Shown here: positions 22,122 to 39,577 of the stretch, one piece after another | How the letters are laid out: each line of letters starts with the position of its first letter | Position numbering within the stretch: position 1 is the first letter of the stretch | Assembly (NCBI RefSeq): GCF_001748285.1 | Contig: NZ_BDGT01000044.1 | Coordinates: forward strand, 1 to 39,577 | Reading direction: 5' to 3' | Source: Thermogemmatispora onikobensis | GTDB taxonomy: Bacteria; Chloroflexota; Ktedonobacteria; Ktedonobacterales; Ktedonobacteraceae | DNA: 39,577 nucleotides | The notes under the pieces: generated by a model | The model's input: only the letters and a program-made list of their open reading frames with translations | What the model was told of the DNA's origin: nothing | Database searches by the model: none | Made by a program: the position numbers and the translations under genes

Positions 22122-25100
22122 ATGACAACTGCGGGCGAAGCAGGGACGCCAGATGCCTACCGCCTGAGCCGTCTCCTGGGAAAAACCAGTCTCGCCGAGA
22201 CCTATCTTGGCGAGGAGCGCGCCAGTGGCACCCCCATTGTCTTCAAGCGGTTGACGCTGCCCCTGAACGAGGGCGACCGCCAGCGTTTGCTTGCAATGCT
22301 GCAAGCCTCTGCGCGCATCCTTCACCCTGCCCTGGTGCGAGTACGTGCTGTGGGCTTGCACGATAATGCTCCTTTCGCGGTGACAGAGTATGCACCCGCT
22401 GGCTCGCTACGCCAGCGCTATCCGCGGGGAATACGCCTGCGACCAGAAATCCTGCTCTCGTTTCTTCCGCAACTCGGGTCGGCCTTGCAGCATCTGCACC
22501 GTCAAGGCGTCTTCCACCTGGACCTCAAGCCCGAGAACATCTTGCTGAAGGCCGATGGGAACGTGATGCTCAGCGATGCCGGCTGGCTGAGCGTGCCAGC
22601 ACTGCTGCAGGTGCGCCTGACCGCCGAGCCCCATAGCGCGGCCTATCTGGCCCCCGAGCAGCTTCTGGGCTTGCCAGTAGCGGCCAGCGACCAGTATGCT
22701 CTGGCCTGCTTGCTCTACGACTGGCTGAGTGGACAGCCGCCGTTTGTTGGCTCTCCCCGAGACGTCTGTAGACAGCATCTGTATGCACCCCCGCCCCCAC
22801 TGGCAACCTCTGTGCCGGCAGCGTTGACGATGGTGCTCTGGCGCGCCCTGGAGAAAGACCCTGGCAAGCGCTTCCCCAGCGTCACCGCCTTCGTCGAGGC
22901 ATATACGCAAGCCTTGCGTGGAACGGCCAGCCGACCAGCCAGCACCTCCGTCTCTTCCAAAGAGAGTTCTCCCAGCCACACGCCCTCGGCGCCACCACCC
23001 GCTCCGTCGGAGCTGGTACTCCACCAACAGGAGGGGAGAAGAGAGGAGGAGACGGGTCAGCCTCCCTCCTGCCGGCTGTGCGGTCGGCCCCTCCCCACAA
23101 GCAGCAGACCACTGGCCTGTCCTGTCTGTGGCTACCCGGCGGATCTCCAGGAGGAGCAACGCTTCCTGGAGCAGCTGACGAGTGAACTGAGTCGCCTGGC
23201 CCACGCTGGCGCGGCCTCGCTGCCATTGGGCGTACTGGCAGCGTTTTCTGTCCCCTCACTGCTGGCGCTCAGGCGCGAGGCCCACGCTGGTCATGCCTCC
23301 TTGCCGTTGGGGCTGGCCGTTGACCGCTACTGGCACCGCTTGATGGAGGTGCGACGCCTCCTTGCCACTGCCTCCGAGCGTGCGCGTCTGAGCCAGCCAG
23401 CCAGTCCTTCGCCTTCCCTGCAGCAAAGAACCCAGGGCGAGGCAACTTTTCCCACTGCCTCCTCTCAGCAGACCTCAGCAGCCACGCCCGTCAAGCCAGC
23501 CTCCCAGCAGCAGATCAGGCAAGAGCTGCCTGACTCGGCAGCGCCATCACCGGCACCCTCGCAACGGGAGTCCCAAAGCGCACCTGCTGCCCCCGTAGAT
23601 TCCCAACCACAGGTGGTCGCTGCGGCCCGAGAAGCGGCGGGTGTCGGCCCGACCCCTGCCCCTGCTCCTGTACCATCGGCGCCTCCGCCCCCGCTCCCGT
23701 CCCGCCCCAGTCCCATTGCTACCTTGCGACCGCTGGTTGAGTCGCCTGTGGCTCTGATGGTTGCTCTGGGAACCTTTCTTCTGCTTGCTGCGCTTGTGGT
23801 CTTCCACATTGCCGATCAATCCCATGCCCTCCCGGTGACCATTTGCGCTCAAGGCTTTTTTGCTCTGATGATGATCATCACTGGCCGCTCTTATCGATTC
23901 CATGAGTTTAGAGGTATCTATGCCATCTTCTTCGCCCTCACGGTGCCACTGCTCTTCCCCGATCTGGAGCCGTTCCTTCAGCACTACCAGCCCTGGCTGC
24001 TGGCCTTAACGGCGCTCTACGCAGCGGTGACCTATGGGGTGCTGGCCGTCTCCCAGCGCTTCGCCCCGTTTGCGATCCTCTGCGCTGTGGCCCTGGTGGT
24101 CTCGACCGTCTCCCTGGTTGGGGCCGTTTTTGGCAGCCAGGGATGGCTCTGGATACGCTGGGTGCCGGCTGGCCTGCTCGCGCTGGCGCTGGTCGAGGCG
24201 GAAGCCCTGGGAGCACCACCCCAGGGGGCACGTGGCTCACCTCTGGCCCGGCTACTCTATAGCTCCTGGGATGTGTTGCGGCTGCCACTGGCCTTTTCAT
24301 CACAGACGCTGGCCTACACGATCACTGGACTGGCGTTCATCGGTAGCCCCATCCTGCTCATCCTCCTCTGGACATCGACGCCAGTGGAGGAAACACTGCG
24401 CGTCGCGACGTCGGCTCCTGTGACCTTACTCCTGGCCTCCGTCTGGCTCCTGCGCCTGGGCGCGCTCACACGCCAGTCCCCTGCACAGTACCCGCTCATG
24501 GGCCTGCTGACCCTGGCCGTACTACTCACCGCTAGCCTGATCGCCCCAGAGGCGGCCCGGCTGATGAGCAGTCTGGGCCTGCTCCTGCTGGCGACTTGCA
24601 GTGAAGGCTATGCCCGCCTGGCACCACCCTCGCTCTGGCTCTACCTGCGTCCCGGGCGCGAGCTGACGACAGTGCGCTTCCTCCTGCTCCTCCTGCTCCC
24701 TTTCCTGGCCGTTCTGCCTGCACAAGCAACTGGCCAGACGAACGGCCTGCTGACTGGCTCTTCGCTCGTCTTCGCCAGCGCCGCTCTTCTGTTGCTGGTG
24801 GTGCTCTGGCCCGCACCGGAAGCCTCCCCTGGGGACAATCGGCGCCTCAGCACGGACCGCTCGCCCTGGCTGCTGCTGCTCCCCGCGGGAATGCTCCTCT
24901 GGGGCTATGCAGCCCTCGGGCAGGCTCTCAATTGGGCATCAGTTGGACCCTTGTGGTGGTTTGGCCTCTTCTGTGGGGCCTTCCTGGCGCTCTCCTCCCT
25001 GATCCGTCGCCTGGCCGGGCGTCAGCAGGCCGCTCTCTGGGAGATCGTGGCGCTCGCCGCGGCCATCCTGATCCTGGTCCTGCTGCCACTTCAGCAGGAC

Positions 25101-27917
25101 CTGCTTGCTATGGCACTGGTGCCGCTGCTACTAGGAACGGCGAGTTATGGACTGCTGATCGTGCAGCGCCGTTCACTCTGGCTCTTCCTGCCTGGCTTGT
25201 TCCTTGGGGTCGGGCTGCTGCTGCTTGGATTCTGGATCAGGCACCTCCAGGGCAACGATGCCTGGGCGGTCGTTCTGTTGGGGAGCGCTGTCCTGTTGCC
25301 CCCTCTCGCTGCCACACTGCGGCGCTGGCTACCAGCCGGTCAGACGAACTTGGTACAGTCGGCGGCCCAGACCTGGACGAGCGAGCGCCTCTTGACCACC
25401 TGGGAATGGGACTGGCCGTTGACTGCTTTAGCCCTGGGAGCCGGCTGCTGGTTGGCCAGCTTGCTGTTGGGGAATGCGGCCTATTGGAGCAGGATGGCCC
25501 TGGCGATGACGAGCGGCTGGCCCTGGCTGGCTGGCCTGGCACAATCCGGCTGGCTGGCAGTGGAAGAGACGCTGATAGTGGCTCTGGTCTCCTACCTGGC
25601 TGGACTGTGGGCCAGGTCACGCCTCTGGCTGGTTCCCGCAGCCCTCTTTGCTCTGATTGCGCTCTGGCTGGTCCAAGACCAGTTCTGGGCCTTGACTGGC
25701 GTGGTCGTCGGCACCGCTGCAGTCGGTCTGGTGGTCAGTCGCCTGAGTGGCCAGCGCTGGGCTGTTCCCTGGTATGTCGCTGCCCTCTTCAGCCTGCTGC
25801 TGGTCATGAGACACGCCTTGCTTCCCTCAATCCAGGCAGAGAGCACCTATGTGCTGCTGGGGCTGGCAGGCGTTGTCACAGTGGTCGGCCTGATGGAGGG
25901 GCAGCCGAAGGTGTTATGGCTGGTGCCACTCCTGCTGCTGGAAGCGAGTGCGGTCGCCTTGCTGTACAGGCAGCTCTGGCTGCTTGATGTGCTCCTTGTG
26001 CCGGCTCTGGTCCCACTGAGTGCGCTGGTGGGCCTGGGCGTCAGCCGTTGGGACCGGTTGCGGCAAGGCCCTCCGAGCAGGGCGCAACGCTGGCGCTGGT
26101 CCCTCCCCTGGTACGTGGGAGGCCTGGTGGGCCTGGGCGCAACGAGCCTGGTCGCCTTTGGGGGACCGTGGAAGGCGAACCCGTTACAGATCCTGTGGCT
26201 GGTGGGTCCCTACCTGCTGCTGAGCTTCGCTGTGCTCGCCACCGCGGTCGCCTGGCTGGAGCGCACTCCCGAGCTGCTCTGGCTGGCTCCCGTCCTGGTG
26301 TTGGAGGCCTCCACGTCGGCTCTGAAAAATCTCTGGGCTGCAACGCTGGCTCAGCCTCAGCAGGCGACGCCAGGGCTGCTCTTGCCACTCCTGGTGCCCG
26401 CCTGCGCCCTGGTAGGGCTCCTGCTGAGTCGCCTGCACAGGCACCAGCGCCTCTTGAGACTGCGATGGGCTGCCCCCTGGTATGTCGGCGCCCTGGTGGG
26501 CATAGCTGCTAGCAGCCTGGCGCTCTTCACAGGACGCTGGGCAGTCCATCTACCGATACTGGCCCAGGTGGGACCATACTTGCTGCTGGGCTTCGCTGGC
26601 CTTGCCACCGCCGTAGGCCTGGTCGAGGCTCTCCCCGAGGTCCTCTGGCTTGTCCCCCTCCTGACGGTCCTCGCCATTGCGGCGGCTCAGCTCACCACCG
26701 GTTCTGACCGCGGGCGCGCTCTGCTCCCGCCCGGCCTGGTCCTGCTTTCCACCCTCGTGGCGCTCGGCACGAGCCGCGCCGTGCGGGGGCGCTTGAGACA
26801 ACGATCGGCAGATGCTGCTGTCTTGCCCACCTGGTTCCGCCTGCGGCTGACAGCTCCCTGGTATCTGACGGCGACCTTTGCGGCCTGTGCCACTGCGACA
26901 TTCCCTTTTGTCCAGCGAGGAATGCCCTGGCCTGGCGCCGTGCCCATCCTGCTTCTCGGCTATGCCCTGCTGGCTTTCCTTGCTGCGCTGCAAGAACAAT
27001 GGCTGTGGCTTTCCCTGGCGACCGTCGTCTTCGGACTGTGGGGGCTGAGGCTGTTGATTGGACGTGTCCCAGATCTGCTTCTGCCGCTAGGCGTCGGAGC
27101 GCTCGCAGTGGCCTTCCTGGCTGACGTGCTGTTGCACCCCCTTCCCTCCAGGGCCTGGCCTGCCTCACTGGTGAAGCTGATCCGGCCTTCCTGGGCCTTG
27201 GTCTGGGTCCCGCTCATTGTCCTGACCTGGAGCGCGCTGGGCTGGCTTCGCCCACAGCCGGTGGCCTTCCTCCTGACACTTTTCCCGACACCGGCTTTCT
27301 GGGGCGCTGCCCTGGTCGCTTTCCTCGTCTACGGCTCCGGTTTGCTGCTGCGTCAGCTGCTGGTCTGCTGGCTGGCATTGCCGCTGGCCCTCTCCGCCCT
27401 CGCCCAGGTCAGCGTTGCCTCAGAGCACGGCCAACCAGGACCGGGTATGAGCGAGTTGGCTCTCTTCTGCCTCTTGTGCACCCTCGGCCTGGCCATTGGA
27501 GCCTCTCTTGAACGCCGCTGGCCGCTGCGTCCCTACTTGCTTCCTCTCCTGGCCTCCAACTGCGCCGGAGTCTTGATGCTGGGCATGGCTGGCACCACTG
27601 CCCACAGCGCACAAGGCCTGGTCCTGGCCTCGGCCCTCCTGCTGGGGTATGGCTTCTTGAGCTGGCTCCTGGCTCTCCACCTGGGCTTGCCCTGGCTCAC
27701 GCTGCTCACTGGGCTCTGGACCATCTGGGGCCTGGCCCTCCTTGCTCTCAACGGCCAGCTGGATCAGCGAGGCAAGATGCTGTTGGTCATTCCCATCGGC
27801 GCCGCCGCCACACTGCTGGGCCTGCTCGGCCTCCATCGCTCGACGAGCAGCGCTCCTCCCCGGCGGCACCAGCCACCTGACGCACGTCCTCAGCCTCATG
27901 AGGAGGAACCGCTATGA
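22122..27917 (+). CDS. Giant kinase-like / zinc-ribbon / polytopic membrane protein
   Basis: A 1931-residue protein. Residues 13-270 form a Hanks-type kinase fold with unusual motifs: the glycine loop is LLGKTSLAETY (glycines lost), Lys42 is kept (VFKRL), the catalytic loop is HLDLKPEN (Asp134 kept, Arg replaced by Leu), DFG reads DAG (Asp152), and LAPEQ is intact. It may be weakly active or a pseudokinase. A CxxC-x12-CxxC zinc ribbon follows (Cys317, 320, 333, 336), then a Pro/Ser/Ala-rich linker to about 540. The rest is hydrophobic, with several dozen predicted membrane helices and four diverged tandem repeats starting with PWY (residues 1216, 1329, 1452, 1579). GAGGTG precedes the ATG. 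Its stop overlaps the start of the next gene (ATGA), so both products probably act together in the membrane. Function unknown. Confidence 0.85.
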   Translation: MTTAGEAGTPDAYRLSRLLGKTSLAETYLGEERASGTPIVFKRLTLPLNEGDRQRLLAMLQASARILHPALVRVRAVGLHDNAPFAVTEYAPAGSLRQRYPRGIRLRPEILLSFLPQLGSALQHLHRQGVFHLDLKPENILLKADGNVMLSDAGWLSVPALLQVRLTAEPHSAAYLAPEQLLGLPVAASDQYALACLLYDWLSGQPPFVGSPRDVCRQHLYAPPPPLATSVPAALTMVLWRALEKDPGKRFPSVTAFVEAYTQALRGTASRPASTSVSSKESSPSHTPSAPPPAPSELVLHQQEGRREEETGQPPSCRLCGRPLPTSSRPLACPVCGYPADLQEEQRFLEQLTSELSRLAHAGAASLPLGVLAAFSVPSLLALRREAHAGHASLPLGLAVDRYWHRLMEVRRLLATASERARLSQPASPSPSLQQRTQGEATFPTASSQQTSAATPVKPASQQQIRQELPDSAAPSPAPSQRESQSAPAAPVDSQPQVVAAAREAAGVGPTPAPAPVPSAPPPPLPSRPSPIATLRPLVESPVALMVALGTFLLLAALVVFHIADQSHALPVTICAQGFFALMMIITGRSYRFHEFRGIYAIFFALTVPLLFPDLEPFLQHYQPWLLALTALYAAVTYGVLAVSQRFAPFAILCAVALVVSTVSLVGAVFGSQGWLWIRWVPAGLLALALVEAEALGAPPQGARGSPLARLLYSSWDVLRLPLAFSSQTLAYTITGLAFIGSPILLILLWTSTPVEETLRVATSAPVTLLLASVWLLRLGALTRQSPAQYPLMGLLTLAVLLTASLIAPEAARLMSSLGLLLLATCSEGYARLAPPSLWLYLRPGRELTTVRFLLLLLLPFLAVLPAQATGQTNGLLTGSSLVFASAALLLLVVLWPAPEASPGDNRRLSTDRSPWLLLLPAGMLLWGYAALGQALNWASVGPLWWFGLFCGAFLALSSLIRRLAGRQQAALWEIVALAAAILILVLLPLQQDLLAMALVPLLLGTASYGLLIVQRRSLWLFLPGLFLGVGLLLLGFWIRHLQGNDAWAVVLLGSAVLLPPLAATLRRWLPAGQTNLVQSAAQTWTSERLLTTWEWDWPLTALALGAGCWLASLLLGNAAYWSRMALAMTSGWPWLAGLAQSGWLAVEETLIVALVSYLAGLWARSRLWLVPAALFALIALWLVQDQFWALTGVVVGTAAVGLVVSRLSGQRWAVPWYVAALFSLLLVMRHALLPSIQAESTYVLLGLAGVVTVVGLMEGQPKVLWLVPLLLLEASAVALLYRQLWLLDVLLVPALVPLSALVGLGVSRWDRLRQGPPSRAQRWRWSLPWYVGGLVGLGATSLVAFGGPWKANPLQILWLVGPYLLLSFAVLATAVAWLERTPELLWLAPVLVLEASTSALKNLWAATLAQPQQATPGLLLPLLVPACALVGLLLSRLHRHQRLLRLRWAAPWYVGALVGIAASSLALFTGRWAVHLPILAQVGPYLLLGFAGLATAVGLVEALPEVLWLVPLLTVLAIAAAQLTTGSDRGRALLPPGLVLLSTLVALGTSRAVRGRLRQRSADAAVLPTWFRLRLTAPWYLTATFAACATATFPFVQRGMPWPGAVPILLLGYALLAFLAALQEQWLWLSLATVVFGLWGLRLLIGRVPDLLLPLGVGALAVAFLADVLLHPLPSRAWPASLVKLIRPSWALVWVPLIVLTWSALGWLRPQPVAFLLTLFPTPAFWGAALVAFLVYGSGLLLRQLLVCWLALPLALSALAQVSVASEHGQPGPGMSELALFCLLCTLGLAIGASLERRWPLRPYLLPLLASNCAGVLMLGMAGTTAHSAQGLVLASALLLGYGFLSWLLALHLGLPWLTLLTGLWTIWGLALLALNGQLDQRGKMLLVIPIGAAATLLGLLGLHRSTSSAPPRRHQPPDARPQPHEEEPL
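25767..27030 (+). repeat. Four diverged tandem protein repeats in membrane domain
   Basis: Units begin at P-W-Y at bases 25767, 26106, 26475 and 26856, spaced 113, 123 and 127 codons. The shared pattern is PWY(V/L)-small helix, then (V/I)GPYLLL-x-FA-x-LAT-x-VG-x-(V/M)E, then P-(E/K)-(V/L)-LWL-x-P-(L/V)-L. Each unit is probably two to four membrane helices. The last is the most diverged. Confidence 0.6.
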
Positions 27918-29071: not shown

Positions 29072-31126
29072 TCAGACATAGCCCCGGAGCCGATCCGCTT
29101 CTCGATAGGCCGCCTGAGCGTCACGCTCTCGCCCAAGACGCTTGAGGGTGTTACCACAGCGCTCATAAATCTCGGGATCTGCCGGATCTTTCTGCTGGAG
29201 CTGCTCGTATAGAGCAAGCGCCTCGCCATAGCTCCCCAGCACAAAAAGTGCATCAGCACGCCGCAACACTGAGAAACCCATCCCGCTACGCTCCTCTGCC
29301 TCCAGCGCCTGCTGATAAGCCTGGCGCGCTTCCCGCTCTCGCCTCAGCTTCAACAGCGCATCGGCCTGGCCATAGCGCGCAGCTACCAGCCCAGGGTCGT
29401 AGCGCAGCGCCTCCTCATAAGCCGCCAGGGCGGCCCGATACACACGCTGCTGGTAGAGCACATCACCTCGGGCACAGTGCGCCGCGGCAAAACCCGGCTG
29501 GAGCTGGAGAGCACGCTCAAAGGACGCCAGGGCCTCCCCATACTCCCCACGGGTCAGCAGCAGAAGACCACGGCCATAATGGGCCGCGACATTGCTCGGG
29601 TCAGCCTCCAGCGCCAGCTCGTAGGCGGCCAGCGCCTCCACAGTCCTGCCAAGCCGCTCCAGCGCCGCTGCACGCCCGCTTTGGGCAGCGCTGTCTTGCG
29701 GATTCTGCCGCAGCGCCAGCTCATAGGCGAGCAGCGCCTCCTGGAAATGCCCACCTTGCCAGCAGCGATCACCTAGCCCCCGCCAATCGAGGACCAGCTG
29801 GGGATCGCAGGCCGTCGCCCGCAGATAGCTCTGGAGCGCCTCAGCATACTGCCCCTGCCGGGCTAGCTGATCCCCAAGCCCCTTCAGGGCTTGGGCCTGC
29901 AAGCGGACCTGTGCCAGCTTCGGCTCCTCTTCCAGCAACGAGGCAGGCACTGCAACCGGAGAGACAGCGGCAGGCTCAGGCTGAGAAGCAACAGGTTTGG
30001 CTGGATGAGCAGAAACTGAATGAAGAAGAGCATCAGCAGAAGGATGAAGCAGTGGAACAGAAGCAGCATTTGATCGCCAGGAGGGGGACACTTCTGCGGA
30101 AGCCCCCTGCTGAGGCGCTGGCGTGAGCATCCTGCTTGCATACCGTAAAGGAGGATCAGCAGGATCAAATCGCTCAAGCAGCTGATAGCGCAGCAAGGCT
30201 GTCTCTGCCTGACCGCGAACGGCCTCCCTGTGAGCCCGCTGCAGCCAACAGGCTTTCAGCTCCCCGTACTGCGCAGGATCATGTGGGGCCGTACGCAATG
30301 CCTGCACAAACTCGCCTACCGAGGCGTGGCGCTGCTCTGGCACCTTCATCAGCGCTTTCAACACGGCCAGCTCGATATGTAGCGGTAGGTCCGGGCGAAC
30401 ATGCGAGAGCGGCAGGGGCAGTTCCTCACGGTGCTGCAGGGCCCAGCTGAACCAGCTCCCACCGGCGGCAGCCAGGGGCTTATGACCGGTCAGCAGCTCA
30501 TAAGCCAGGCAGCCGAGCGCGTATTGATCACTGGCCGGCAACGCTCGCCCCTCGAATTGCTCCGGGGCCATATAGGGCAGCGTTCCAGCAATCGGCAGGC
30601 GCTGCGTCGCTGCTGCATCCAGAATCACCGCGATCCCAAAGTCAGCCAACAAGACGCCGCCGGCGGCATCAAACAAAATATTCTCCGGCTTCAGATCGCG
30701 ATGAATCACAGGCTTCTCCTGGGAATGGGCATGTTCTAGCGCCTGTCCAACCTGCTCCAGAATCTGCAGCGCCTCCTCCACTGGCAAGCCACACGGTTGC
30801 TGGTGCAACCGCTCACGTAGCGATCCACCAGCAGCATAGGCAGCGATCAGATACGGAGGAAAATCCTGGGCAAGGCCGGCATCATACAGCGGCAAGATAT
30901 GGGGGTGACGCAGCGCCTCCAGCAACCGGGCCTCTTGAAGAAAAGCCTGTTGCTCCTTGGCGGAGACACCATGCGCGCTACTGAGAAACTTGATCGCTGC
31001 GCGGCGAGGCAGCAGCAAATGCTCAGCCAGGTAGACCTCGCCAAAGCTACCGCTTGCTAAGCGCTCTCCAATGCGATAGTTCCCAAGTTGTTTCCCGGTA
31101 TAGGGTGCCGGTCCGGTCGAGGCCAT
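29072..31126 (-). CDS. Cytosolic Ser/Thr protein kinase with C-terminal TPR array
   Basis: A 684-residue protein. The kinase domain spans about residues 17-280: glycine loop LASGSFGEVY (23-32), Lys46 (AAIK), Asp144 (HRDLKPEN), Asp162 (DFG) and YMAPEQ, all intact. A Pro/Ala/Ser-rich linker (about 340-400) leads to roughly eight tetratricopeptide repeats (about 405-680) with the usual G-x-x-x-x-x-x-G-x-x-x-x-A spacing and the A-L-x-x-(D/N)-P turn. There is no membrane helix, so it should be cytosolic and the TPRs likely bind partners or substrates. No strong ribosome binding site is visible directly before ATG 31126. It is convergent with the preceding membrane protein gene. Confidence 0.94.
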   Translation of the reverse strand: MASTGPAPYTGKQLGNYRIGERLASGSFGEVYLAEHLLLPRRAAIKFLSSAHGVSAKEQQAFLQEARLLEALRHPHILPLYDAGLAQDFPPYLIAAYAAGGSLRERLHQQPCGLPVEEALQILEQVGQALEHAHSQEKPVIHRDLKPENILFDAAGGVLLADFGIAVILDAAATQRLPIAGTLPYMAPEQFEGRALPASDQYALGCLAYELLTGHKPLAAAGGSWFSWALQHREELPLPLSHVRPDLPLHIELAVLKALMKVPEQRHASVGEFVQALRTAPHDPAQYGELKACWLQRAHREAVRGQAETALLRYQLLERFDPADPPLRYASRMLTPAPQQGASAEVSPSWRSNAASVPLLHPSADALLHSVSAHPAKPVASQPEPAAVSPVAVPASLLEEEPKLAQVRLQAQALKGLGDQLARQGQYAEALQSYLRATACDPQLVLDWRGLGDRCWQGGHFQEALLAYELALRQNPQDSAAQSGRAAALERLGRTVEALAAYELALEADPSNVAAHYGRGLLLLTRGEYGEALASFERALQLQPGFAAAHCARGDVLYQQRVYRAALAAYEEALRYDPGLVAARYGQADALLKLRREREARQAYQQALEAEERSGMGFSVLRRADALFVLGSYGEALALYEQLQQKDPADPEIYERCGNTLKRLGRERDAQAAYREADRLRGYV

Positions 31127-31391: not shown

Positions 31392-33287
31392 CTAGAAGGG
31401 CGGATAGGCGTTCTGGACCAGGGTATCGAAGCCCGCCTGGAACCAGGCCCCCGAGACCGGTGCGTTCGGCATCGCTCCCGTCGGCTGGTTATTGTTCATC
31501 GAATTGCCCCCATAGGTCGGGTCGCACATTCGATCGAAGCCTTTGCCCGTCGGGTTGTTCGGTCCCTGTGGGATCAGGCTGCTGGACCCATCCGACTCCC
31601 CTGGTGGCTTGATCCACACAAAGGCGTCAAAGCCGCTCGACGGGTTGGCCTGCGGACGCGCTCCAATCCCGCCTGGCTGGTTGCACCAGTTCCCCCGGCT
31701 GTAGCGGCGATCAATGCGCGTCTGATCCACGAACGTGTTCACATCCGTGGCACTGCTCGGCCCCGTCGGACGGTTCGGCCCACCCCAGCCGTTGCGCGAG
31801 GTATCGATGAGCATCCCGATCGTGCTCGGGAACCCCTGCGCAATGAAGGCGTTGCGCATATCAATGTCGTAGGGCAACTCATCGATGTAGTTGTTCCACT
31901 GGTAGAAGTTCGCCGAGCGCACCGGCTGCCCCCCGATGGTCTGATTGGCCGTCATGTACGGCTCCGTCGTCGGGGTGTAGTTGGCCGTGTTACTGATGAA
32001 ACCATCAATGCTGTTGACCCCCGCCGTCGTCCCCTTGATCGTGTTGCTGATCAGGGTCACCGCCGGCTGGAAGTTGCTGCTCCAGCCCAGCCAGCCACTA
32101 TGAGCAATGTCGACGTAGAGATAGACGTTGGGGATGGCATGCAGCTTGTTGATGGCGTACTGAATCCCTTGTACGTAGGCTCCGCTAGAGTTGGCCTCCG
32201 CACACTTGGCAATGCTGAGGTTGGTCACCAGGTTGGGCAGTGAGTCCGGCTCAATGATGGCCACAATGCGCAGGTTGCTGTACTTGGACTGGCTGAAGGT
32301 GGCCGCAATCGGGTCGATGAACTGCGACTTGTAGGTGGCCAGCCCATTGTTAGAGACGCTCAGCTCTCCGTTGGAGGCCAGAGCGGCACAGTCTCGATTG
32401 GGCAGATCGTAGACCACAAAGGTGATCACAATCGGCTGGCTGCTGGAGGCCGCCTGCTGCTCCGCTGCGTCCAGATAGCCGGAGAGGTTGGTCGGGTAGC
32501 CGGTCCCGCCCGTGACCGCCGCAATGCTATCCAGCCAGACCGCCGTCGAGTAGCTGGCAACCTGGGCTTCCTTCTGACCCAGCGTGCCCCCAACACTGGC
32601 CGCACCCGCCCTCACTTCCGCCGCCCAGTAGGGGTTGATGAAGCCCTGGGCCCCCGCGTAGGGGTTGTCCACGTGCACGCCCGGCGTGGGGGTGCTCGTC
32701 GGCGCCGGCGTTGGCGTGGGGGTCGGCGTGGTGCCCGGCGTTGGCGTGGGCGTTACTGTTGGTCTGGGCGTGGGAGTGGGAGTCGGGGTGCTGCCCGCGG
32801 TCGGCGAGGGCGTGGGGGTCGGCGTGGGGGTGCCACTACCGCTGCTGCCCCCGCAGGTGTTGCCGTTGACCGCAAAGGTGGTCGGCGTCGGGTTGCTGGT
32901 CGTCCAGCTACCGTTGAAGCCCAGACTGACCGAGCTGTTGACCGCTACGGTGCCGTTCCAACTGGCGTTGGTGACGGTGACGTTCTGCCCCGACTGGCTG
33001 AAGTTGCCGTTCCAGCCCTGGGTGACCGCCTGACCGCTGGCGGGGAAGGTAAAGGTGAGGGTCCAGCCGTTCCAGGTGCTGCTGCCAGTGTTCTGTAACA
33101 CTAGGTTAACGCTGAAGCCGCCAGGCCATTGGCTGACAACGCTGTAGCTGACCTGGCAGTAGCTGGCTGCGTGCACTCGCGCCTGACTGCCAAATAACCC
33201 CGTCAGCAGCAGGACGGGCAGGGCCAGCAACGCCAGCAGCTGCTTGCGTCTCCACAGACGCTGACGCCTGGGTACCTGTGATGCCAT
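31392..33287 (-). CDS. Secreted GH6 cellobiohydrolase with N-terminal CBM2
   Basis: A 631-residue secreted cellulase. A basic N-terminus and hydrophobic core end in RVHA-AS, so signal peptidase should cut near residue 40. A family 2 cellulose-binding module follows (about 41-148: YSVVSQWPGGF, W-N-G-W, GWNG, NGSW), then a ~55-residue Pro-Thr linker of PTPT repeats, then the GH6 catalytic barrel (about 206-631). The GH6 signature VYDLPNRDC-x-A-x-ASNGE carries Asp299, and IIEPDSLPNL carries Asp348, the probable catalytic acid. The loop-rich C-terminal half (WCNQPGGIG, FVWIKPPGESDG) fits exo-acting cellobiohydrolases that attack cellulose from the non-reducing end. AAGGAAAG precedes ATG 33287. 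LacI-type operators lie just downstream of its promoter. Confidence 0.95.
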   Translation of the reverse strand: MASQVPRRQRLWRRKQLLALLALPVLLLTGLFGSQARVHAASYCQVSYSVVSQWPGGFSVNLVLQNTGSSTWNGWTLTFTFPASGQAVTQGWNGNFSQSGQNVTVTNASWNGTVAVNSSVSLGFNGSWTTSNPTPTTFAVNGNTCGGSSGSGTPTPTPTPSPTAGSTPTPTPTPRPTVTPTPTPGTTPTPTPTPAPTSTPTPGVHVDNPYAGAQGFINPYWAAEVRAGAASVGGTLGQKEAQVASYSTAVWLDSIAAVTGGTGYPTNLSGYLDAAEQQAASSSQPIVITFVVYDLPNRDCAALASNGELSVSNNGLATYKSQFIDPIAATFSQSKYSNLRIVAIIEPDSLPNLVTNLSIAKCAEANSSGAYVQGIQYAINKLHAIPNVYLYVDIAHSGWLGWSSNFQPAVTLISNTIKGTTAGVNSIDGFISNTANYTPTTEPYMTANQTIGGQPVRSANFYQWNNYIDELPYDIDMRNAFIAQGFPSTIGMLIDTSRNGWGGPNRPTGPSSATDVNTFVDQTRIDRRYSRGNWCNQPGGIGARPQANPSSGFDAFVWIKPPGESDGSSSLIPQGPNNPTGKGFDRMCDPTYGGNSMNNNQPTGAMPNAPVSGAWFQAGFDTLVQNAYPPF

Positions 33288-36820: not shown

Positions 36821-36902
36821 AAAGACGGCTGAAGGTCGTTCTCTCTATCTCCCGGCGTGACGAACGCTGCCGGAGCGGTCCGCTAAAGGAGGAGGGCACG
36901 CT

Positions 36903-37613
36903 ATGCTTGTCAAAGATGTCATGACCAGAAAGCTGATTACGGTGACCCCCGATGATACCCTCGGGCACGCTGCCACGCTGCTGCGCCAGTTTCAGTTTCA
37001 TCATCTGCCAGTAGTTCAAGGGGAGCCAGCTATCTTCGGCTTCACGGGAGCGACGAAGCCTCTCTATCTGGAAGGGCTGCTGACCTCGCAGGATATCGAC
37101 CTGGCTGTCGCCGCCTCGGCGCAGCAACCCTGGCAGGAGCGACATGTCCAGGAGGTCATGGACCGCAGCCCCGTCTGCGTGACTCCCACGACCAGCGTCG
37201 CCGCTGCAGCCCAGGTGCTGGTTGAGCGCGGCCTCAACGGGCTGCCCGTCGTCGAGTATGAGCAGCAGGAGCAGCGAACGCGCACCCTCCTGGTGGGCCT
37301 CTTGACCCGCAGCGATCTACTCATCGCGCTCGCCCGCGCTCTGGGAGCTTTCGAGCCAGGGATGCAGCTCCTGATCCCCTTCACCACGGGCAATCCGACC
37401 CCGCTGGCCCGCCTTCTGCTCCTGGCTGCTGAACTGCATGTTCAGGTCCGCAGCCTGGTCGTTGTTCCTCCCAAGAATGGCCAGCCGCGAATGGCGACCG
37501 TACGCCTGGGCACCATTAACCCGGCCCCTCTCTTGATGCGCCTGCAGGATGAAGGCATCGAGTACTCGTTTCCCGATCTTGCTCTAGAGGAGCGCAGCCA
37601 TGACCAAGCCTGA
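36903..37613 (+). CDS. acuB: CBS-domain protein AcuB-like
   Basis: A 236-residue protein with two CBS domains (about 1-80 and 84-146), each starting with the D-V-M-(T/D)-R motif (KDVMTRKLITVTPDD, QEVMDRSPVCVTPTT) and closing with GLLT-S/R-x-D. The C-terminal ~80 residues have an ACT-like strand-helix pattern. This layout and the overlap with an AcuC gene match AcuB of the Bacillus acetoin-utilisation (acuABC) locus. CBS pairs usually bind adenine nucleotides, so it may tune the acetylation system to energy state. Its stop codon overlaps the next start by 14 bases. A strong AAAGGAGGAGG precedes the ATG. Confidence 0.85.
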   Translation: MLVKDVMTRKLITVTPDDTLGHAATLLRQFQFHHLPVVQGEPAIFGFTGATKPLYLEGLLTSQDIDLAVAASAQQPWQERHVQEVMDRSPVCVTPTTSVAAAAQVLVERGLNGLPVVEYEQQEQRTRTLLVGLLTRSDLLIALARALGAFEPGMQLLIPFTTGNPTPLARLLLLAAELHVQVRSLVVVPPKNGQPRMATVRLGTINPAPLLMRLQDEGIEYSFPDLALEERSHDQA

Positions 37614-39577
37614 TCTTGCTTCTTCTCACCCCCGCGTTTGCCTGGCTTTTGACCCGCTGGAACTCCACTACGATTTTGGGGCCGCCCACCCCCTCCAGGC
37701 GGACCGCATGCGGGCCTTGCTGGACCTGCTGGAGACCTGCCAGCTGTGGCGCCAGGGCGATCCCCTGTTGCACCTTCCGATCCGCCCCGCCTCCCTCGAT
37801 GAGCTGCGGCTGATCCACACCGATGACTACCTGGCCGCGGTTCAGCGGCTCGGGGCCGCGGCGGCAGAGCTGCCTGCTCTTCCCCCACAGCAACGGCAGG
37901 AGTTGGAGCAGCAGGCGCTCCGCTACGGCTTCGGCGATGGCGATACGCCCATTATGCCAGCAATGCACGAGGTTTCGGCGATGATCGCCGGCGGGACACT
38001 GGTCGCAATGAGTGCCGTGCTCGGCTTGCCCGAGGGCGGCCAGTTCTCCTCACCCGAGGAGCGGCCTGTGCATGTCTTCCATCCCGGCGGCGGCCTCCAT
38101 CATGCCTGGGCCAGTCGTGCCTCGGGCTTCTGCGTCTATAATGATGCTGCTGTGGCCATTGCTCATGTGCTGCGCGCCAGCGAGGCCAAAGTCCTCTATG
38201 TCGATTTCGACGCCCATCATGGCGATGGGGTACAGCGTGCCTTTTACGATGAACCGCGCGTCTTGACGGTCTCCCTCCACGAAACGGGCCGCTACCTCTT
38301 CCCCGGCACCGGCGATGTCCTGGAATTGGGGAACGGCCTTGGTCGCGGCTATTCTGTCAATGTGCCTCTGGAGCCATTTACACAGGATGACTCCTACATT
38401 GAGGTCATCGAGAACCTGCTACCGCCCCTGGCCCTCTCTTTCGCCCCCGACGTGATTATCAGCAACCACGGCTGCGATACCCATGCCTGGGACCCGCTGA
38501 CTCACCTGGCCTTGACCACACGCGCCTTGCAGGCCCAGGTGCGACTGGTGCACGAGCTGGCTCATCGCTACTGCGGTGGGCGCTGGGTCGCTCTTGGCGG
38601 CGGCGGCTATGATCCCTATCGGGTCGTGCCGCGGGCCTGGGCCCTGGTCTGGGCGGAACTGTCCGGTCAGCCGCTCCCTGCTCAGCTGCCCACCGATTGG
38701 ATCGAGCGCTGGCGCCCGTCGTGGGAGGCCATGCGCGAGCGCGAGCGCGAGACCTGGGAGGTGATGGGCAAACCGCAACAGGAAAGCAACTTCCCTGCAA
38801 CCTTTGAGGACCAGCCAGAACACTTCCCACCGGTGCCACGTATCCAGGAAATCACGCGGGCCAACCGCCATACGGCCTCGCTCGTTCGCCATCTCGCTGT
38901 GCCGCCTGCCGTGCGACCGGCTTTTCCACCGCTGCGCCAGCGCTCGCCGCTGGCGGGCCTCTTCGATTTGCTCCACCTGCGCGGCGCTGATACGCCCTCG
39001 CGTAGCCAGACCTTGCAGACGGCGCGCGGCCCGATCCTCTTGCGCGATTTCTGTCCCCCCTCGCTGGTCGAACGCTTTCGCCCCTCCAGCGGTCTCTGCT
39101 CCTTCACGCGCCTGCCCGAGCGCGAGCATCGTCTGCTGCTGGAGATTGCGCAGCGGGCCGATTGCGCGCTGGCTCTTGCCCATACCCCCGGAGGTGAGAT
39201 CGTCGGCGAGGTGACTCTGGCCCCCGGCGACGCCTGGTGGGAGGGGTTGGAGCAGGTCTATGAGGTAGCCATTGAGGTCAGCCGAGACTGGCGTGGTCTG
39301 GGCATCGCGCGCAATCTGCTGGCTTTTGCCCTCGATCTGGAGGCTCGCGAGGACTTGATTTTCTTTGCCGTTGGCCTCTCCTGGCACTGGGATACCGAGG
39401 GCACCGGCTTGTCAATCTATCGCTATCGGGAGATGCTCATCAAGCTCTTTGGCTCTCAGGGCTTTAAGGAGTATCCTACCAATGAGCCGAATATCGCCAT
39501 GGACCCGGCCAATGTCTTGCTGGTTCGCGTCGGCAGCCGGGCCGATCAGCGCATCGTCAGCCAATTCTTCAGTCGGG
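37600..39577 (+). CDS. AcuC-AcuA fusion: lysine deacetylase joined to acetyltransferase (3' truncated)
   Basis: The open frame leaves the window after 659 codons. Residues about 10-380 are a histone-deacetylase-fold protein like AcuC: catalytic His167-His168, Zn ligands Asp204, His206 (FDAHHGDG) and Asp293 (GCDTHAWDPLTH), and Tyr337 (GGGGYD). A ~90-residue Pro/Arg-rich linker follows. From about residue 472 the sequence matches Bacillus AcuA, a GNAT acetyltransferase: VYEVAIEVSRDWRGLGIAR is the acetyl-CoA-binding segment, and SWHWD...YRYREML...NEPNIAMDPANVLLVRVG mirrors the AcuA C-terminal half. In Bacillus AcuA acetylates and AcuC deacetylates acetyl-CoA synthetase; here both activities seem to be in one chain. 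GAGGAG lies 7 bases before ATG 37600, inside acuB. The end of the protein is not seen. Confidence 0.92.
   Translation, partial: MTKPDLASSHPRVCLAFDPLELHYDFGAAHPLQADRMRALLDLLETCQLWRQGDPLLHLPIRPASLDELRLIHTDDYLAAVQRLGAAAAELPALPPQQRQELEQQALRYGFGDGDTPIMPAMHEVSAMIAGGTLVAMSAVLGLPEGGQFSSPEERPVHVFHPGGGLHHAWASRASGFCVYNDAAVAIAHVLRASEAKVLYVDFDAHHGDGVQRAFYDEPRVLTVSLHETGRYLFPGTGDVLELGNGLGRGYSVNVPLEPFTQDDSYIEVIENLLPPLALSFAPDVIISNHGCDTHAWDPLTHLALTTRALQAQVRLVHELAHRYCGGRWVALGGGGYDPYRVVPRAWALVWAELSGQPLPAQLPTDWIERWRPSWEAMRERERETWEVMGKPQQESNFPATFEDQPEHFPPVPRIQEITRANRHTASLVRHLAVPPAVRPAFPPLRQRSPLAGLFDLLHLRGADTPSRSQTLQTARGPILLRDFCPPSLVERFRPSSGLCSFTRLPEREHRLLLEIAQRADCALALAHTPGGEIVGEVTLAPGDAWWEGLEQVYEVAIEVSRDWRGLGIARNLLAFALDLEAREDLIFFAVGLSWHWDTEGTGLSIYRYREMLIKLFGSQGFKEYPTNEPNIAMDPANVLLVRVGSRADQRIVSQFFSR

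Follow-up and report, generated by a model that had tools for sequence, protein, structure and literature searches.

A conserved AcuC–AcuA fusion encoded beside acuB in Ktedonobacteria is a candidate single-chain writer and eraser of acetyl-CoA synthetase acetylation

In Bacilli, AcuA acetylates and inactivates the acetyl-CoA synthetase AcsA, and AcuC deacetylates it (PMC11255334, PMC13121692, PMC13039410). At the 3' end of the DNA analysed here, both enzymes appear within one open reading frame, which raises the question of whether the joining is genuine and whether one protein could write and erase the same acetyl mark. The window, that is, the whole stretch of 39,577 nucleotides that was analysed, is one entire contig (C44) of a 5.56 Mb Ktedonobacteria genome. 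The features that bear on the question are the following.

36886–36892, plus strand: ribosome-binding site of acuB (AAGGAGG), read from the sequence
36903–37613, plus strand: acuB, full length (Pfam CBS E 6e-25; PDB 9s4v E 3e-21, 9qs7, 9s4w)
37356–37574, plus strand: ACT-like domain of AcuB (alignment to 9s4v)
37587–37592, plus strand: ribosome-binding site of the fusion gene (GAGGAG), 7 bases 5' of its ATG and within acuB, read from the sequence
37600–37613, plus strand: 14-base overlap of the acuB end with the fusion start
37600–39576, plus strand: acuC-acuA fusion gene, stop-free up to the contig end
37687–38658, plus strand: AcuC catalytic domain, HDAC/arginase fold (PF00850 E 4e-80; AcuC clade tree; Foldseek)
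38098–38103, plus strand: H167-H168, HDAC catalytic histidines (alignment)
38209–38217, plus strand: D204-A-H206, Zn ligands (alignment)
38476–38478, plus strand: D293, Zn ligand (alignment)
38608–38610, plus strand: Y337, transition-state tyrosine within GGGGY (alignment)
38659–38889, plus strand: AcuC C-terminal tail, FPPxPR...NRxT... (alignment with Anoxybacillus and Paenibacillus AcuC)
38890–38997, plus strand: fusion linker, conserved RSPLxGLFDLLHL...TPSR (alignment; AF2)
38998–39576, plus strand: AcuA acetyltransferase domain (GNAT), its C-terminal end lost at the contig end
39274–39276, plus strand: E559, equivalent of the BsAcuA general base E102 (alignment)
39292–39294, plus strand: R565, equivalent of the acetyl-CoA-locking BsAcuA R108 (alignment)
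39382–39393, plus strand: W595-H596-W597-D598, equivalent of BsAcuA W138-D141 (alignment)

Elsewhere the contig carries two protein-kinase-domain genes (22122–27917 and 29072–31126), one encoding 1931 aa without a further Pfam domain and one with TPR repeats, and a gene (31392–33287) for a secreted GH6 cellulase that includes CBM2 as well as a long proline-threonine linker.

We aligned the fusion with acuC and acuA from Anoxybacillus amylolyticus and Paenibacillus cellulosilyticus (loci L121 and L122), where the two are separate genes. The order was a whole AcuC with its tail (PPxPRxxxI...N), a linker, and a whole AcuA: residues 1–430 form a complete AcuC deacetylase of the class I-like HDAC type and residues 467–659+ a complete AcuA acetyltransferase, with about 36 conserved linker residues between them. 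The nearest relatives are in Thermogemmatispora species (97–93% identity). The earlier note had pointed beyond the window end, and there the frame that starts at 37600 does continue: the 97% identical homologue of T. carboxidivorans (L002) reaches its stop after ten more codons, at 669 aa. The genes that follow it in L002, short-chain dehydrogenase-like and sigma-factor-like by eye, look unrelated. An AlphaFold model of the fusion, built from only 20 sequences, was of moderate confidence (pLDDT 76, pTM 0.62), and we therefore claim no domain packing; the linker has low confidence at residues 435–448 and forms a helix at 450–458.

The AcuC half was recognized by Pfam as Hist_deacetyl (residues 30–353, E 4e-80), and Foldseek matched it to HDAC2 and HDLP at E about 1e-20, with nothing but HDACs among the top-ranking matches. 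It aligns with Bacilli AcuC over the full length, C-terminal tail included. The complete AcuC catalytic set that had been claimed for this part (HH, DxH, D and Y) is all present and invariant: H167, H168, D202, D204, H206, D209, D293 and Y337 were identical in 25/25 aligned fusions. The same genome encodes two more HDAC-family proteins, both outside the AcuC clade; in a tree built without Bacilli AcuC, the fusion clade was split from these two with support of 100/99.

The AcuA half gave a modest Pfam GNAT match (residues 509–584, E 3e-5), and its C-terminal 210 residues matched solved AcuA structures end to end (2q04, E 6e-27; BsAcuA 9g7f, E 6e-24). Profile comparison returned AcuA at 8e-36 and 2e-34, with the next family at 4e-4. 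The alignment to AcuA, including the WHWD motif, holds as the earlier note described it, and residues E555, E559, R565 and W595-H596-W597-D598 were invariant in 25/25 aligned fusions. These correspond to BsAcuA E97, E102, R108 and W138-D141, of which E102 is the general base and R108 and D141 lock acetyl-CoA (PMC11255334). Two features of the Bacilli enzyme are altered. The position of BsAcuA E135 is glycine in 28/28 fused and 4/4 solo Chloroflexota AcuA sequences; in BsAcuA, E135A and E135Q raised acetylation rather than lowering it, and E135 is dispensable for activity (PMC11255334). The Bacilli AcuA tail (203–210, ..RFMNRFMY), whose last residues enter the AcsA CoA site (PMC11910552), is replaced by a conserved, unrelated tail of similar length of the type S-R-x-L-S-x-P-x-L, and FMNRFMY is absent. 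With both changes, the non-catalytic mode in which AcuA locks onto AcsA may not carry over. An AcuA profile search and the HDAC tree revealed no stand-alone AcuA and no second AcuC-clade enzyme in the fusion's own genome. In several other Ktedonobacteria (L112, L113, L114 and L115), the fusion is accompanied by stand-alone AcuA paralogues, each of which keeps the catalytic residues.

The claim that AcuC and AcuA are fused in a single polypeptide was confirmed by the domain matches and by independent assemblies, more than 20 in all, in which the frame is continuous. That unbroken frame also rules out a sequencing error concealing a stop and a start at 38750–39010. A tblastn search located 22 full-length or frameshifted fusion copies in named genomes, comprising Thermogemmatispora, Ktedonobacter, Dictyobacter, Tengunoibacter, Ktedonospora, Thermosporothrix and MAGs. 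Against L006, base changes across the junction and linker fell 2/2/43 on codon positions 1/2/3 (third position in 43/47), and against L003 the linker changes fell on the third position in 27/33 cases; this concentration indicates selection for protein through the junction. Purifying selection was strong on the AcuC half and on the AcuA half. Production of a free AcuA from an internal start was considered and rejected, since no start codon in the region of the AcuA part, where they are scattered, is conserved together with a ribosome site.

The AcuC–AcuA domain order was also sought elsewhere, and it was found across the window's GTDB family f1 (intact in 23/29 genomes), twice in the one genome (G001) of its sister family f2, and, among 400 Chloroflexota genomes, in the more distant G217 (f67) and G175 (f55), both of which carry acuB upstream of it. 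A class-wide search found no fusion in families f3 and f4, which have other HDACs only, and AcuA profile matches occurred in just 32/400 Chloroflexota genomes. Outside Chloroflexota, coverage consisted of a single pattern scan over genome contigs and a single search of plasmids, the latter returning acuA, acuB and acuC of Bacilli as separate genes. In the AcuC-domain tree one clade (99/98) takes in the fusions, the f22 group, and the f17 and L082 members, which are unfused. The AcuA-domain tree places the fused domains together (97/93), separate from solo paralogues and from Bacilli. Each tree is compatible with a single origin, and one fusion event followed by losses would be the simplest reading.

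Several copies depart from the intact form. In G026 (L100:6864–7483), the fusion has lost about 1.4 kb internally, most of both catalytic cores is gone and the frame is broken; the upstream acuB is intact. Dictyobacter kobayashii (L018:6001–8003) has a single frameshift inside AcuA with AcuC open, and Ktedonobacter robiniae (L021:5872–7960) has two frameshifts; either decay or assembly error would account for these. In G175, a paralogue of the AcuC half (L082:5952–7190) ends right at the fusion point, possibly through fission or loss of the writer.

AcuB adjoins the fusion, as had been claimed: it lies directly upstream, overlaps it, and matches solved AcuB structures end to end with two CBS modules and an ACT domain. 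A single-sequence structure model of AcuB reached only pLDDT 40, too low for use. The overlap of acuB with the fusion start probably reflects translational coupling; the acuB/acuC overlap of B. subtilis is four bases (PMC13039410). In almost all relatives acuB adjoins the fusion, overlapping or nearly so, and in Thermosporothrix it is 6 kb away; G029, a genome without the fusion, yielded no convincing acuB. In Bacilli, AcuB loaded with AMP uses its ACT domain, the AcuC-binding part, to attach to AcuC and covers the active site (PMC13121692, PMC13039410). This inhibition has an IC50 of 38 nM with AMP, and there is none with ADP, ATP or Ap4A (PMC13121692). By analogy, AcuB here would be an adenine-nucleotide sensor that inhibits the AcuC half with AMP. 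The equivalents of M188 and W206 are isoleucine and phenylalanine.

The expected target is present in the same genome. Its acsA lies on another contig (C10), unlinked to the fusion, and the C-terminus of the encoded protein, ALPKTRSGKIMRR, keeps the target motif PKTRSGKIMRR intact, the target lysine being residue 623 when numbered from MSNLGF. The motif also occurs in AcsA of the Ktedonobacteria genomes checked, in the form PKTRSAKIMRR in G217 and G175, and AcsA-family ligases with the target lysine are encoded in all fusion genomes checked. The own genome has a second ligase (L058) with the identical motif, and it encodes a sirtuin, which could deacetylate AcsA. One f22 genome (L102:3808–9438) has an acetyl-CoA synthetase-like gene directly after an unfused AcuC-clade gene, an adjacency that supports a functional link.

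Taken together, these results make it probable that the fusion, AcuCA, is a bifunctional enzyme of the AcuABC system, writer and eraser of AcsA acetylation with the eraser under AcuB control. Three lines argue for this: the AcuC and AcuA parts are complete with invariant catalytic residues, in a widespread fusion whose junction is under protein selection; acuB is linked, the AcsA motif is kept and no other AcuA or AcuC-clade enzyme was found in the own genome; and in Bacilli AcuA and AcuC act on AcsA while AMP-AcuB inhibits AcuC. Against it stand the unlinked acsA, the replacement of the AcsA-plugging tail, the change of E135 to glycine, the sirtuin, and the substitutions at the M188 and W206 equivalents of AcuB. 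Of the bifunctional switch on AcsA that the earlier note proposed, the sequence shows the fusion and its conservation, catalytic sets that are intact, linkage to AcuB and a preserved target motif; both activities, AcsA as substrate and the AcuB effect we infer from Bacillus biochemistry, and switch behaviour is likewise a proposal.

AcuCA would be expected to work as follows. With acetyl-CoA present, the AcuA half would acetylate the catalytic lysine of AcsA (PKTRSGK) and turn AcsA off, and the AcuC half would strip the acetyl group and turn it on again. At low energy charge, AMP-loaded AcuB would cover the deacetylase site, leaving the chain, on balance, a writer; bound to ATP, ADP or Ap4A, AcuB would release it and the chain could act as an eraser. 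A more specific form of this proposal is tentative, and we hold it as possible rather than expected: that AcuB, through AMP, ATP and Ap4A, toggles the single chain from net acetylation of AcsA to net deacetylation and back, with the linker coupling both sites. That one half gates the other, or that the two communicate through the linker, is conjecture.

The alternative that survives best, albeit as an unlikely one, is that one half serves chiefly for targeting, with AcuA-type binding bringing the deacetylase to AcsA or the reverse, so that a single activity matters in the cell. The stability of the B. subtilis AcuA–AcsA complex (PMC11910552), the D. kobayashii frameshift that affects the AcuA half only, and the G175 paralogue that stops at the fusion point would all fit such a role. 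However, both catalytic sets have stayed invariant over deep divergence and both halves are alike under strong purifying selection. A slightly less probable alternative accepts an active fusion with a main substrate other than AcsA, either another ANL acyl-CoA ligase or many proteins. The L058 ligase shares PKTRSGKIMRR, acsA is not linked to the fusion, and BsAcuC has several substrates (PMC13039410); on the other side, Bacilli link the AcuA lineage to AcsA, the acsA gene there being divergent from acuA, and no fusion genome checked lacks an AcsA-family ligase with the target lysine. Artificial joining of two genes by assembly or sequencing error, to which only the coincidence of contig end and window end lends anything, is already refuted by more than 20 independent assemblies that share the frame at 58–97% identity, the linker conserved among relatives, and the codon-position pattern over the junction.

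AcuCA, read as writer and eraser, is closest to the AcuABC system of Bacillus and Geobacillus. The two share the AcuA GNAT, AcuB CBS-ACT and AcuC HDAC families with all catalytic residues, an acuB that overlaps the deacetylase gene, and an AcsA with PKTRSGK in the genome. They differ in that Bacilli have separate acuA-acuB-acuC genes, whereas here the order is acuB-[acuC-acuA] with deacetylase and acetyltransferase in one chain; in that acsA is divergent from acuA in Bacilli and on another contig here; and in the altered AcuA tail and E135 position. A second set of proteins, the f22 fusions (L083, L084, L086, L087, L103, L104 and L106) and L024, likewise joins an AcuC-clade deacetylase in-frame to a C-terminal GNAT; this GNAT lacks WHWD, has an (A)ERD(P/V) motif and is unrecognised by the AcuA profile. 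Comparison of the f22 GNAT with the AcuA profile was weak (Prob 85), the best solved matches being other GNATs, and filing these proteins as AcuC–AcuA fusions was not adopted, as such a comparison fits a diverged AcuA or another GNAT.

The AcuC, AcuA and AcuB families are already known, and what appears new is the fused arrangement, for which we found no description in the open literature and a light search outside Chloroflexota. Full-text searches, and term searches within AcuABC and bacterial-deacylase papers, gave no mention of an AcuC–AcuA fusion. To our knowledge, no single-chain writer and eraser of lysine acetylation has been described. The arrangement suggests that a single protein could turn acetate use on and off in this class of bacteria from soils and hot springs. 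If this reading is correct, AcuABC logic, studied in Bacilli, extends to Chloroflexota, the coordination of opposing acetylation activities becomes testable, and so does whether the AcuB nucleotide signal acts on a pair coupled one to one. AceK (the isocitrate dehydrogenase kinase/phosphatase), GlnE, GlnD and HPrK/P likewise place opposing activities on one metabolic enzyme in a single polypeptide. The fusion would differ from them in using lysine acetylation rather than phosphorylation or nucleotidylation, in combining two catalytic folds from pre-existing enzymes, and in having a separate partner, AcuB, in control. It would then be a bifunctional acetyl writer-eraser akin to these classic kinase/phosphatase switches, retained over deep Ktedonobacteria divergence.
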